Assembly (NCBI GenBank): GCA_033875315.1
Contig: JANRJG010000029.1
Coordinates: 1 to 46,536, forward strand
From: Candidatus Methylacidiphilales bacterium
Lineage (GTDB): Bacteria > Verrucomicrobiota > Verrucomicrobiia > Methylacidiphilales > CAZTYG01
Direction of reading: 5' to 3'
Length of the DNA stretch: 46,536 bases
Part shown: positions 6,110-10,901 of the stretch, one piece after another
How positions within the stretch are numbered: position 1 is the stretch's first letter
Layout: every line of letters starts with the position of its first letter
Made by a program: the position numbers and the translations under genes
The notes under the pieces: generated by a model
Database searches by the model: none
What the model was told of the DNA's origin: nothing
Seen by the model: only the letters and a program-made list of their open reading frames with translations

Positions 6110-6472
6110 TTATTTTTCAGGAGCGTCGGCAGGGGGGTCTTCGAGGTTGCGGAGGATTTCCATGACACGGTCTCCCCGGGTCAGGGAATCGTCGAAGCGG
6201 AAGGTCAGTTTGGGGGTGTATTTGATGTGCATGCGCGCGGCGATTTCCTTCTGCCAATCGAAGGCCAGACGGTGAAGGCAGGCCAGGAGATCGTCGGGAG
6301 AGATGCGGTCGCCGATCTGGCTGACATAGACGAAAGCCTGGCGCAAGTCGGGGGTGACATCGACGGAAGTGATGGTCACCACGACATCCTCCAGAAGCCG
6401 TTCTTTGCGCAGCATGCGGCTGAGCTCGCTTTGCAAGAGGCCGGAAATCCGGGTGAGGCGGCGGGAGCTCAT
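6110..6472 (-). CDS. rbfA: 30S ribosome-binding factor RbfA
   Basis: A 120-residue KH-fold protein that helps mature the 5' end of 16S rRNA in the 30S subunit and is needed in the cold. Features visible are RRLTRISGLLQSELSRMLRK at the N-terminus, VTITSVDVTPDLRQAFVYVS in the middle, and HIKYTPKLTFRFDDSLTRGDRVMEIL at the C-terminus. A longer upstream extension is open in frame but runs through the degenerate repeat behind infB and lacks family resemblance, so I use ATG 6472. It is the third gene of nusA-infB-rbfA, 56 bp after the infB stop. Confidence 0.93.
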   Translation of the reverse strand: MSSRRLTRISGLLQSELSRMLRKERLLEDVVVTITSVDVTPDLRQAFVYVSQIGDRISPDDLLACLHRLAFDWQKEIAARMHIKYTPKLTFRFDDSLTRGDRVMEILRNLEDPPADAPEK

Positions 6473-6484
6473 GTCCGATATGGG

Positions 6485-6532
6485 GGATTCCGGGTGCGGC
6501 GTTCTGCTGCGGGATCCGGGATCACGGGTTAC
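6485..6532. repeat. Imperfect 7-base repeats between infB and rbfA
   Basis: Plus-strand heptads GGATTCC, GGGTGCG, GCGTTCT, then after a one-base slip GGATCCG, GGATCAC, GGGTTAC can be read across the infB-rbfA junction, ending over the infB stop codon. The unit resembles the GGATTTG heptads at 23,523-23,564. The copy is degenerate, so confidence is modest. Confidence 0.35.
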
Positions 6533-8637
6533 AGGGCCTGGGGGACTTTTTCCAGGATGTAGCACTCGATAATGTCGTTTTCCATGTAGTCATCGAAGTT
6601 GCCCAGACGGATGCCGCATTCCATGCCGTTGCGGACTTCGGCGGCGTCGTCCTGGAAGCGCTTGAGGGTCTGGATGCTGCCGTCGTAGACCGGCTGGTTG
6701 CGTCGGATGACGCGGGCGCGGCCGGTGCGGACGATCCGGCCCTGTTCGACGATGCAGCCGGCGACGGGGAACTTGGACAGGCTGAAGACCTTCTTGACGG
6801 CGGCCTTGCCGACGGAGGATTCCCGGAGTTCGGGGTCGAGGAGGCCGGCCATGGCTTCTTTCACCTGGTCGATCAATTCGTAGATGATGGAGTAGAGTTT
6901 GATCTGGATGTCCTGGCGCTTGGCCTCGGCGTTGGCGGCATTGTCGACCTTGGTGCTGAAACCGATGATGACGGCGGCGGAGGCCTTGGCCAGGAGCACA
7001 TCGTTGACCGAGATGGGGCCGACCCCGCCGAGGACGTAATGGATCTCGACCTTGTTGGTGGGGATCTTGTTGAGGGAATTGATGATGGCCTCGAGGGAGC
7101 CCTGGACGTCGGATTTGATGATGAGGTTGAGGGTCTTTTTCTGTCCGTCGGCGATGGAGTCGAAGAGGTTTTCCAGGGTGACCGGGCGGGCGGTGGAGAG
7201 TTTGTCGAGGCGGGCGGCGGCTTCGCGTTCCTCACCCAACTGGCGGGCCTCGCGTTCGTTGCGCATGATGTGGAATTCCTCACCCGGGGTGGGGGAGCCG
7301 CTGAAGCCGAGCACTTGCACCGGGGTGGAGGGACCGGCGACCTTGATGGGTTGGCCCTGGTCATTGAGCATGGCCTTGACCTTGCCCCAGAACGGACCGC
7401 AGACGAAGGGGTCGCCGATCTTGAGGGTGCCCTGCTGGACGATGATGGTGGCGTTGGCACCCTTGCCGACATCTATACGGCTTTCGACCACGGTGCCGCG
7501 GGCGGGACAGTCGTGATCGGCTTTGAGCTCGAGAAGCTCGGCCTGCAGGATCATGAGGTCGATGAATTCGGAGATGCCGGTGCCCTTGGTGGCCGAGACG
7601 AGACAGACAACAGTGTCGCCGCCCCAGTCTTCGGGGGTGAGGTCGACTTCCTGGAGTTGTTGTTTGACGCGGTCGGGGAGGGCGCCGGGGACGTCGATTT
7701 TGTTGAGGGCGACCATGATCTTGACCTTGGCGGCCTTGGCATGGGCGATGGCCTCGCGGGTCTGGGGCATGAGACCGTCGTCGGCGGCGACCACAATGAC
7801 GGCGATGTCGGTGAGGTTGGCGCCACGGGCTCGCATGGCGGTGAAGGCCTCGTGGCCCGGGGTATCGAGGAAGGTGATGGACTGGCCGTTGCGGGTGATG
7901 CTGTAGGCACCGATGTGCTGAGTGATGCCTCCGGCTTCACCGGCCGCGACCTTTGTTTTGCGGACGGCGTCGAGAAGGGAAGTTTTGCCGTGGTCGACAT
8001 GGCCCATGAACGTGATGATGGGGGGGCGGCCGACCTGAAGGGTGGTTTCGACGGGCGGAGGGACGGGGATTTCGACTTTTTCCTCGACCTTGTGCACGCC
8101 GCCGCCTTCTTTGCGCCGTTCGAGTTCGAAGACGAAGCCCTTGCGTTCGCAGACTTTCTTGGCGGTTTCCTCGTCAATGACCTGGTTGAGGGTGGCGAAG
8201 ACGTTCATTTCCATGAGCTCGTGGACAACTTGGAAGGCCTTGAGCCCGACGCGGGCGGCGAGGTCCTTGACCACGATGGGGGGTTTCATGGAGATGACAC
8301 TGCCAGGGGCGGGAACCTCGAGGGCGGTGGTGGCCGGGGCAGTGGGGGTCGTGACAGGCTTGGAGGCCGAAGGGGACTCAGCGGTTTTCGCCGGGGCGGC
8401 GGGAGCTTTTTGAGCCAAGGCCGCAGGGGTGGCTGCGGCGGTAGAAGCCGGTGCGGCAGCAGCGGGCGCTGGGGCGGGCGAGGGTTCGGAGGCGGCGGCT
8501 TTTTTGGCCGGGGCTTTCCGGGTGGCGGTTTTCTTTTCAGCACCTGCAGGAGCCGTCGCGGCCGTTTTCTTGGAAGGGGTGGATTCCCCGGATTCGGCGG
8601 GCTTGGCGGTTTTTTTGCGGGTGGTTTCGGGGGCCAT
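6529..8637 (-). CDS. infB: Translation initiation factor IF-2
   Basis: A 702-residue GTPase that places initiator tRNA on the 30S subunit and drives subunit joining. The first ~118 residues are a low-complexity Ala/Pro/Lys/Thr tail. An IF2 N-terminal subdomain follows (residues about 120-172, [20 protein letters not shown]). The G domain has G1 GHVDHGKTS (212-220), switch region [13 protein letters not shown]3 DTPGHEAF and G4 NKID. The C-terminal half holds domains II-IV with the tRNA-binding C2 end ([20 protein letters not shown]). It starts 33 bp after the nusA stop, as in the classical operon, with no ylxR-type gene between them. Confidence 0.97.
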
Positions 8638-8670: not shown

Positions 8671-9930
8671 TTAGGAAGCGGTTGTTTGTTCGGCGGATTC
8701 GGCGGCGCTGCGGAGGGATTGGATGGTTTCGTCGTCCAGATCGGGCAGGGCGTCCTTGATGTCGGAGGCCTCGACGCTGAGGATGACATCGGCACCGGTG
8801 AAACCGGCCTGGATGAGTTTCTCGGCCAGGTCGACGGCGATGCCCAGCTGGGTGGCGAGTTTTTCCGCGGCGAGGTGTTTCTTTTCCTCGAAGCCGACGA
8901 CGTGGACCTCGTCCTTCTCGATGTCGATTTCCCAGCCGGTGAGCTTGCTGGTCAGGCGGGCGTTCTGGCCCCGGCGGCCGATGGCGAGGGAGAGGTTTTC
9001 CTCATCGACGAAGGCCTTGGCGCGCTTGGCGTCGTTGTCGATGATGAGGTTTTTGAGCTTGGCGGGTTTGAGGGCCTCGATGATGAGTTCCTTGATGTCG
9101 GGGGACCAGCGAAAGAGGTCGATCTTTTCGTTGTTGAGTTCGCGGACGATGTTTTTGACACGCGAGCCGCGCATGCCGACACAGGCCCCGACGGGGTCGA
9201 TTTTCTCGTCCTTGGACCAGACGGCGATCTTGGTGCGGTAGCCGGCTTCGCGGGCCATGCCCTTGATTTCGATGGAGCCGTCGTGGAGTTCGTTGACTTC
9301 CAGTTCGAAGAGGCGGCGGACGAAGTTGGGGTGGCTGCGGCTGAGGATGATCTGGGGGCCACGGGCGGCGCTGTCGACGGCCAGCACGAGGGCGCGGATG
9401 CGTTCGCCCGGGGTGTATTCTTCGGTGGGGACGCGTTCCTTGGAAGGGATGACAGCCTCGAACTTGCCGAGGTCGATGATGACATCGGAACGTTCGAAAC
9501 GGCGGACGACGCCGGCGACGATGTCGCCTTCACGGTCCTTGAACTCGTCGAAGATCATTGTCTTTTCGATCGAGCGGAGGTTCTGGTTGATGGTCTGCTT
9601 GAAGATCTGGGCGGCGATGCGGCCGAAGTCCTTGGGGGTGACTTCGATTTCGACCATTTCGCCGAGTTGGGCCATGATTTTCTGTTGGCGGGCTTTCTGC
9701 AGTCCGACTTCCTCGACGGGGTTGGTGACTTTTTCAACGACGCGGAGGGAGGCGAAGCACTTCATGACGCCGTTCTTGGGGTCGAAGCTGACGCGGAGGT
9801 CTTTGGCGGGGCCGAAGCTCTTGCGGGCGGCGGAGAGGAGGGCCTGTTCGATGGCCTCAAGCATGCGCTTGCGGTCGATACCCTTCTCTTTTTCCATGTA
9901 TTCCAAAACTGCAAGAAAATCCTGGCTCAT
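8671..9930 (-). CDS. nusA: Transcription termination/antitermination factor NusA
   Basis: A 419-residue RNA polymerase-associated factor affecting pausing, termination and antitermination. It has the N-terminal RNAP-binding domain (MSQDFLAVLEYMEKEKGIDR), an S1 domain (DIVAGVVRRFERSDVIIDLG), two KH domains (DPVGACVGMRGSRVKNIVRE and LAIGRRGQNARLTSKLTGW) and a short helical C-terminal region with one HhH-like repeat. ATG 9930 is preceded by GGAAGG at good spacing; the 25-residue upstream extension would run through the leader terminator and is rejected. It is first in nusA-infB-rbfA; rimP, usually directly upstream, is absent. A structured leader with a terminator precedes it. Confidence 0.96.
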   Translation of the reverse strand: MSQDFLAVLEYMEKEKGIDRKRMLEAIEQALLSAARKSFGPAKDLRVSFDPKNGVMKCFASLRVVEKVTNPVEEVGLQKARQQKIMAQLGEMVEIEVTPKDFGRIAAQIFKQTINQNLRSIEKTMIFDEFKDREGDIVAGVVRRFERSDVIIDLGKFEAVIPSKERVPTEEYTPGERIRALVLAVDSAARGPQIILSRSHPNFVRRLFELEVNELHDGSIEIKGMAREAGYRTKIAVWSKDEKIDPVGACVGMRGSRVKNIVRELNNEKIDLFRWSPDIKELIIEALKPAKLKNLIIDNDAKRAKAFVDEENLSLAIGRRGQNARLTSKLTGWEIDIEKDEVHVVGFEEKKHLAAEKLATQLGIAVDLAEKLIQAGFTGADVILSVEASDIKDALPDLDDETIQSLRSAAESAEQTTAS

Positions 9931-9957
9931 CTGTCGGTTCCTTCCCTTGTCTGTTCG

Positions 9958-10034
9958 ATTCAGGTGGAATCGGGGAAAAAAAAAGTGGAAACCTGGGGTT
10001 TCCACCTTTCCTCACTCGGAAATCCAACCTGAAT
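9958..10034 (-). promoter_or_regulatory. Structured nusA leader: long outer stem enclosing a terminator
   Basis: Read as nusA-strand RNA, ATTCAGGTTGGATT (from plus 10,021-10,034) can pair with GATTCCACCTGAAT (plus 9,958-9,971): 14 positions with one mismatch and two wobbles, 8 of them continuous Watson-Crick. Inside lie a small TTTCC/GGAAA hairpin and a strong intrinsic terminator. GGATTTCC (plus 10,018-10,025) could instead pair with the terminator arm GGAAACC, an antiterminator option. No gene upstream on this strand needs terminating, so attenuation of the nusA operon is the natural reading. Confidence 0.6.
9976..10005 (-). terminator. Intrinsic terminator in the nusA leader
   Basis: On the minus strand GTGGAAACC-CCA-GGTTTCCAC forms a perfect 9-bp stem with a 3-base loop, followed at once by nine T residues. 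The end of the T run is 45 bases before the nusA ATG. On the plus strand the tail is weak, so it is oriented toward nusA. Confidence 0.8.
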
Positions 10035-10039
10035 TGAAA

Positions 10040-10067
10040 AAACTAGTTGAAAAAGAGAGTGGGTCAA
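10040..10067 (-). promoter_or_regulatory. Possible nusA promoter
   Basis: On the minus strand TTGACC (plus 10,062-10,067) and TAGTTT (plus 10,040-10,045) are spaced by 16 bases. The -35 is good, the -10 is poor. If used, transcription would start near 10,033, almost exactly at the foot of the leader structure. The same TTGACC also forms half of a GGGTCAA-N8-TTGACCC dyad (10,061-10,082) just before lpxI. Confidence 0.3.
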
Positions 10068-10088
10068 GGCTTAGTTTGACCCCTTAGG

Positions 10089-10901
10089 ATGGCACCACTG
10101 GGGATCATTGCCGGCAAGGGATTGTATCCCGAGCTGTTGCTGGAAGAGGCCCGAGCGGCCGGGGAGAGCCGTATCTGCATGGCGGCCTTCGAGGGGGAGA
10201 CCGATCCGGCCCTGGCGGCCCGGGCCGATGTGTGTGCGTGGATGCGGGTGGGGCAACTGGGGCGTTTGCTGGATTTTTTCAAACAGGAAGGGGTGGAACG
10301 GGCCGTCATGGCGGGTCAGATCACGCCCGGACGGTTGTTCGATCTGCGACCGGATTTCAAGGCTTTGTGGTTGTTGGCGCGGCTGAAGGAGCGGAATGCG
10401 GAAACGCTTTTTGGTGCGGTGGCGGGGGCGTTGGCCGGGGTGGGGGTGGAATTGTTGCCGGCGACCACGCACTTGGAGCGCTATCTGGCACCAGCCGGGC
10501 ACGTGGCCGGCCCGAAGCCGCACCGCCGTCTCCGGGAAGAGATCGCGTTTGGATGGCCCAAGCTCAAAAAAGTGGCGGCGATGGACATCGGCCAGTGCTT
10601 GCTGGTGCACCGTGGAACGGTATTGGCTGTGGAGGGTTATGATGGCACCAACGCCACCATCCGGAGGGGTGGAGCCCTGGCCGCGGGGGCGACGTTGCTC
10701 AAAGTATCAAAGCCGGGGCAGGACATGCGCTTCGACGTGCCGGTCATCGGCCCGGATACGGTGCGGGTGGCGGCGGAGTCGCGGTTGGGGGCGATTGTGG
10801 TCGAGGCCGGAAAAACACTCATGCTTGGGCTCGACGAGATCGAAAGTCTGGCCCAGAAAGAGCATGTGACTATTTTTGCCGTGGATACGGAGGGAGCATG
10901 A
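10089..10901 (+). CDS. lpxI: UDP-2,3-diacylglucosamine pyrophosphatase LpxI
   Basis: A 270-residue protein of the DUF1009/LpxI family, which hydrolyses UDP-2,3-diacylglucosamine to lipid X at the cytoplasmic membrane, replacing LpxH in many bacteria. Family blocks seen are GIIAGKGLYPELLLEEAR at the N-terminus, AVMAGQITP, MDIGQCLLVHRGTVLAVEGYDGT, and KVSKPGQDMRFDVPVIGPDT. The gene opens a three-gene unit (lpxI, oxidoreductase, lpxB) with ATGA overlaps, placing it directly before LpxB, the next enzyme in lipid A synthesis. Its start lies 158 bp from divergent nusA. Confidence 0.92.
   Translation: MAPLGIIAGKGLYPELLLEEARAAGESRICMAAFEGETDPALAARADVCAWMRVGQLGRLLDFFKQEGVERAVMAGQITPGRLFDLRPDFKALWLLARLKERNAETLFGAVAGALAGVGVELLPATTHLERYLAPAGHVAGPKPHRRLREEIAFGWPKLKKVAAMDIGQCLLVHRGTVLAVEGYDGTNATIRRGGALAAGATLLKVSKPGQDMRFDVPVIGPDTVRVAAESRLGAIVVEAGKTLMLGLDEIESLAQKEHVTIFAVDTEGA

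Follow-up and report, generated by a model that had tools for sequence, protein, structure and literature searches.

The nusA gene of the Verrucomicrobiota genome described here is preceded by its own intrinsic terminator, which is conserved across the phylum and lies at a fixed short distance from a predicted promoter, so that attenuation of nusA-infB-rbfA is the best reading of the leader. The promoter-proximal terminator probably functions as a leader attenuator through which NusA throttles its own operon by negative feedback. This kind of attenuator is already known in other phyla, as the rimP-leader with NusA feedback, and the present case is a variant without rimP. The window, i.e., the whole stretch of 46,536 nucleotides analysed, forms one contig of the metagenome-assembled genome G000 (Verrucomicrobiota; 3.15 Mb, 95.65% complete), the closest named relatives of which carry Methylacidiphilales or Verrucomicrobiales labels.

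The leader occupies the 158-base gap that separates the divergent nusA and lpxI genes (Table 1). Read on the nusA strand, this gap is TTGACC-N16-TAGTTT-N5-ATTCAGG...GGAAAGGTGGAAACC-CCA-GGTTTCCAC-T9-CCCCGATTCCACCTGAAT...GGGAAGGAACCGACAG-ATG. The hairpin core, GTGGAAACC-CCA-GGTTTCCAC (9,985-10,005, minus strand), is perfect over 9 bp, and 45 bases lie between the end of the U-tract and the nusA start codon; the initial annotation had described exactly this hairpin, with nine Us, and its coordinates are borne out. With its A-U extension the hairpin has a folding energy of -15.9 kcal/mol, and that of the whole 113-nt leader is -39.6 kcal/mol versus -28.4 +/- 3.3 kcal/mol in shuffled sequences (z = -3.4). 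The pattern GTGGRA..TYCCACTTTTT has a single match in the 3.15-Mb genome, at the nusA leader. A repeat or mobile hairpin is rejected, as the genome holds no second full copy.

Table 1. Genes and leader elements of the nusA region, in window coordinates
Feature	Position	Strand	Basis and remarks
rbfA	6110..6475	-	TIGR00082 59.6 bits; PF02033
infB (IF-2)	6529..8637	-	TIGR00487 710 bits
nusA	8671..9930	-	NusA_N, S1 and KH domains; TIGR01953 418 bits; Pfam; ATG at 9,930
Probable Shine-Dalgarno region of nusA (GGGAAGGAA)	9938..9946	-	Sequence
Outer stem, 3' arm	9958..9971	-	Fold; species-matched pairing; prefix folds; made only once polymerase is beyond the U-tract
Terminator U-tract (nine T)	9976..9984	-	Sequence
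Intrinsic terminator hairpin	9981..10009	-	9-bp core; fold; conservation; lengthened into the U-tract by one G-U pair and by A-U pairs
Outer stem, 5' arm	10021..10034	-	Fold; order-level species-matched pairing; begins at the predicted transcription start
-10 element TAGTTT (weak)	10040..10045	-	Sequence prediction; 16-nt spacer; start ~10,034
-35 element TTGACC	10062..10067	-	Sequence; TTGAC is the core in 62/77 relatives with a promoter-like match
lpxI (divergent neighbour)	10089..10901	+	LpxI_N and LpxI_C domains

The initial annotation had proposed a comparison of nusA upstream regions in related genomes. Such regions were gathered from the order Methylacidiphilales, from named genomes and from classes across the phylum, near-duplicates were removed, and terminators were called with a home-made scorer. 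An intrinsic terminator is present within 150 nt of nusA in 118 of 136 non-redundant Verrucomicrobiota leaders, and in all 30 of those from Methylacidiphilales, counts that overstate the number of independent events because the sequences are related. The comparison also supports the outer stem within the order, as detailed below. In a first set, 81/95 leaders carry a terminator versus 51/950 dinucleotide shuffles (~5%) and 6/95 antisense strands; when a G(T/C)GG 5' arm is required, 74 of these 95 leaders qualify versus 5/950 shuffles. The U-tract begins 54 nt from the ATG in the window and a median of 40 nt from it in relatives (5-95% range, 20-78). The terminator is missing from about 13% of leaders, among them those of a Chthoniobacterales/Terrimicrobiaceae-like group. 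Twelve leaders (L059, L060, L069, L071, L072, L074, L077, L078, L079, L051, L052, and L113) keep a TTGAC-type promoter and carry no U-tract terminator; some of them retain a hairpin, e.g., CCGTGAA..TTCACGG in L069.

The two arms of the stem are conserved to different extents. A paired G(U/C)GG 5' arm, mostly GUGGG, occurs in 101 of the 118 leaders with a terminator, and across these anchored leaders the 5'-arm signature R-R-GUGG(G) is near-invariant. Around GUGG(G) the stem covaries, with A-U/G-C swaps outside and U-A/C-G/A-U/G-C swaps inside. The 3' arm is more variable (CCCAC, CCCGC, UCCAC), and pairing is kept by G-U wobbles; the 5' arm therefore seems to be retained not just for pairing but also for its sequence. 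The 5'-arm motif is found in 42/51 nusA-leader terminators and in 0/12 other terminator-like hairpins near nusA. The looser pattern GTGGG..CCCRCTYTT with a U-tract gives ~1-2 matches per genome over 134 genomes, and among the matches listed ~52 are the nusA leader by hand count. Outside the hairpin, leader sequence is poorly conserved. This poor conservation weighs against the terminated leader RNA of ~55-60 nt being a functional small RNA, which is most improbable, even though an RNA consisting of a small, stable hairpin would build up in the cell and short leader RNAs have been observed in Streptococcus agalactiae (PMC4448216).

Promoter-like sequences, identified by consensus match, precede the hairpin in 77/118 leaders versus 15.6% of shuffles. 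The -10 element of relatives is TANNNT, at the same place as TAGTTT in the window. The promoter proposed in the initial annotation is indeed found, and its predicted start coincides with the foot of the outer stem. In leaders with a promoter-like match, a median of 28 nt separates the -10 element from the hairpin, corresponding to ~20 nt of RNA before it. Neither a leader peptide nor an aptamer would fit into so short a stretch, and leader-peptide attenuation is rejected on the same ground. The window thus has the layout of NusA attenuation, i.e., a predicted promoter (by consensus match), then a terminator, then nusA. With the putative promoter upstream of the hairpin, the terminator is taken to belong to nusA itself. 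An inverted repeat, GGGTCAA-actaagcc-TTGACCC, overlaps the -35 element at 10061-10082 as a possible operator; it is not seen in the relatives looked at.

The same geometry bears on insulation against transcription from upstream. Although this is a common role of intergenic terminators, it is highly implausible at nusA, where the predicted promoter itself lies upstream of the terminator and lpxI is divergent in the window and in 12 relatives (all those in which lpxI was found). Because lpxI is divergent, no same-strand upstream gene needs a terminator, as the initial annotation had remarked. In other relatives the neighbouring gene changes and the nusA terminator persists.

The absence of rimP narrows the choice of effector. 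RimP_N profile searches give no match in the window's genome, none above cut-off in 62 genomes of the order, and one in 383 Verrucomicrobiota genomes, while the RimP C-domain is over cut-off in 0/194 genomes; the same searches recover RimP in 10/14 control genomes. The sole RimP_N match (L124) comes from a stretch of 2.8 kb, next to an unrelated DUF1501-like gene, and may be contamination. RimP thus appears to be missing from Verrucomicrobiota, effectively phylum-wide. The terminator stands directly before nusA because rimP is missing, and the layout differs, as had been pointed out, from that of E. coli, with neither metY nor rimP ahead of nusA. Since the terminator is retained where rimP is missing, RimP cannot be its required sensor. 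Naville and Gautheret, who described the rimP-leader attenuator in 2010, considered RimP conceivable as the effector and gave preference to NusA (PMC2965389), leaving open which of the two drives what was their most widespread attenuator (PMC2965389).

The rimP-leader (PMC2965389; Rfam RF01770, ‘rimP’) is likewise a short terminator hairpin with G-rich and C-rich arms, a U-tract and a conserved stem sequence, located 4-130 nt before the first gene of a (rimP-)nusA-infB operon, a range that includes the 54 nt of the window. Neither leader has a visible antiterminator or aptamer. The differences are that (i) rimP comes first in the rimP-leader operon and nusA comes first here, (ii) the window stem GUGGAAACC/GGUUUCCAC departs from the GGGc(...)gCCC motif, and (iii) Methylacidiphilales add the outer stem. 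The motif GGGc(..)gCCC is exact in Opitutales relatives (GUGGGCC/GGCCCGC) and partial elsewhere (GUGGGU/ACCCAC); E. coli has CUGGGC-UUUA-GGCCC-U7 ahead of rimP. The RF01770 model has no match in the window leader, and its matches elsewhere in the same genome are all below the 47-bit gathering cut-off; Rfam at gathering thresholds likewise matches neither the window nor the leader of any of 16 relatives. The RF01770 model is narrow, as only one of 14 control genomes passes its cut-off. At the phylum level, the terminator is very probably homologous to the rimP-leader.

Three operons offer further comparisons. According to a passage in a review, NusA of Bacillus subtilis autoregulates its own synthesis by stimulating termination in the 5' leader of nusA (Mondal et al. 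2016, per PMC12288461); by the same account that nusA gene also has an intrinsic terminator in its leader, with experimental support there and an assignment from anatomy here (PMC12288461). NusA feedback has also been proposed for the rimP-nusA leader of S. agalactiae, in which termination occurs 31 nt after the start (PMC4448216). The S. agalactiae rimP-nusA-infB operon likewise has a promoter-proximal terminator, and its very short terminated leader shares its start with the long mRNA; unlike the window, it retains rimP and terminates just 31 nt from the start (PMC4448216). The metY-rimP-nusA-infB operon of E. coli combines terminators (t1, t2) ahead of the operon, NusA feedback, and a base-paired leader processed by RNase III, but differs from the window in having the metY tRNA and rimP before nusA, several promoters and two terminators (PMC6511841).

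The leader in the window has a conserved promoter-proximal stem and no structure that competes with it, an anatomy consistent with an attenuator operated by a polymerase-bound protein. NusA stimulates hairpin-dependent pausing and intrinsic termination. It is also encoded by the first gene of the operon, which makes it the best candidate effector. Transcription would start at ~10,034 on the minus strand, and polymerase would reach the strong intrinsic terminator ~30-60 nt further on. A fraction of polymerases would stop there and release the short leader RNA, while the remainder would continue into nusA-infB-rbfA. Abundant NusA would raise termination and scarce NusA would lower it, giving negative feedback on the operon. 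The near-fixed 5' arm, purines followed by GUGGG, may be read by a protein as it leaves the exit channel, most likely by polymerase-bound NusA. The initial annotation had put forward NusA feedback as a natural hypothesis. The conserved promoter-proximal terminator and the standing of NusA among candidate effectors agree with that proposal; the idea itself had already been described in other phyla.

Factor-dependent terminators are often weak. A 9-bp stem followed by nine uninterrupted Us looks strong, and adequate expression of nusA may therefore need an antitermination input. Such an input would also make sense if the attenuator were run by another factor, such as a cold-shock protein (Csp) or a different RNA-binding or elongation protein, able to melt the hairpin or to leave it intact, in which case the ratio of stopped to continuing polymerases would report a signal other than NusA. 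Retention of the 5' arm in sequence, and not in pairing alone, is compatible with this alternative, as is the induction of the whole E. coli operon by cold stress (PMC6511841). Another factor is nevertheless rather unlikely. Outside Methylacidiphilales the hairpin has no further conserved element next to it, the first gene of the operon encodes NusA, and in other phyla NusA feedback is documented at the corresponding site.

An antiterminator is not apparent within the leader either. The initial annotation had cast GGATTTCC as an antiterminator arm against GGAAACC, a pairing that reduces to a 5-bp UUUCC/GGAAA core (-7.8 kcal/mol). Species-matched pairing of the 5' flank with the terminator 5' arm gives z = -1.4 (p = 0.09) in the order, z = -0.3 in other classes, and a weak z = -1.9 in Opitutae-like leaders; the proposed arm lacks comparative support and is rejected. 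The shuffle control for the same two segments gives z = -2.2 in the order and -3.6 in Opitutae-like leaders, and a weak conserved complementarity between flank and arm is possible (CACTTT..AAAGTG in Opitutae). In Opitutae-like leaders L083-L115, a conserved CACTTT lies just before AAAGTGGG, where it has the potential to fold into a small alternative hairpin at the terminator's base. The lack of a detected antiterminator, together with a strong hairpin and U-tract, would suit a fixed, unregulated partial terminator that sets nusA-infB-rbfA output at a lower level. Such a device is quite unlikely, since a weaker promoter would do as a brake and a near-invariant GUGGG arm would be unneeded, other terminators being without GUGGG.

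The outer stem of the initial annotation (9,958-9,971 with 10,021-10,034) is present, with one bulge and one mismatch. Taken by itself, the window shows an outer stem no better than chance would allow (p ~0.19), and support for the stem comes from the order. Aligning seven close relatives with MAFFT and RNAalifold yielded a positive covariation term, owing to the sliding of the outer stem from one species to the next, and pairing was assessed by matched-pair permutation instead: within the order, flanks pair at -17.4 kcal/mol within species versus -12.3 kcal/mol between species (z = -7.6; 0/20,000 permutations). Against shuffled flanks the z of the mean is -11.0, with z < -2 in 15/30 leaders. 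Other classes show weaker pairing (z = -4.9 and -4.7), and in Opitutae-like leaders the outer stem is absent by the shuffle control (-1.1).

Prefix folds place the outer stem after the termination event, with the terminator already complete before the outer-stem 3' arm is made. Polymerase has already left the U-tract behind when it makes this arm. The outer stem therefore cannot decide termination there, and it probably suits mRNA processing or stability better than a stop/go decision; RNase III processing of the E. coli leader is a precedent (PMC6511841). On readthrough past the terminator, the order-specific outer stem would fold and give the mRNA a long base-paired 5' structure, probably serving processing (RNase III-like) or stability. 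For one family (f8), the fold favoured by RNAalifold was a rearranged one, with the 5' arm of the terminator paired to a downstream segment, a modelled pairing that could dismantle the hairpin after readthrough. Seven leaders (L015, L016, L018, L019, L021, L022, and L023) carry CCCCACTGCAGG downstream of the U-tract. This segment is similar to the 3' arm of the terminator and, in these leaders, can pair with GCCTGCGGTGGG as an alternative to the terminator, post-readthrough only.

A phylum that lacks RimP and still retains the nusA terminator argues that RimP is dispensable for this attenuator and turns attention to NusA. The 5' arm, near-invariant while the 3' arm drifts, provides a concrete candidate recognition sequence, GUGGG, and the outer stem of Methylacidiphilales adds a structured element beside the terminator. 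A more specific and tentative proposal, possible but doubtful, is that NusA of rimP-less Verrucomicrobiota directly recognises GUGGG in the nascent RNA, and that in Methylacidiphilales the readthrough RNA refolds into the outer stem and is then cut or protected. If true, Methylacidiphilales would have an mRNA with separate controls at the levels of termination and processing.
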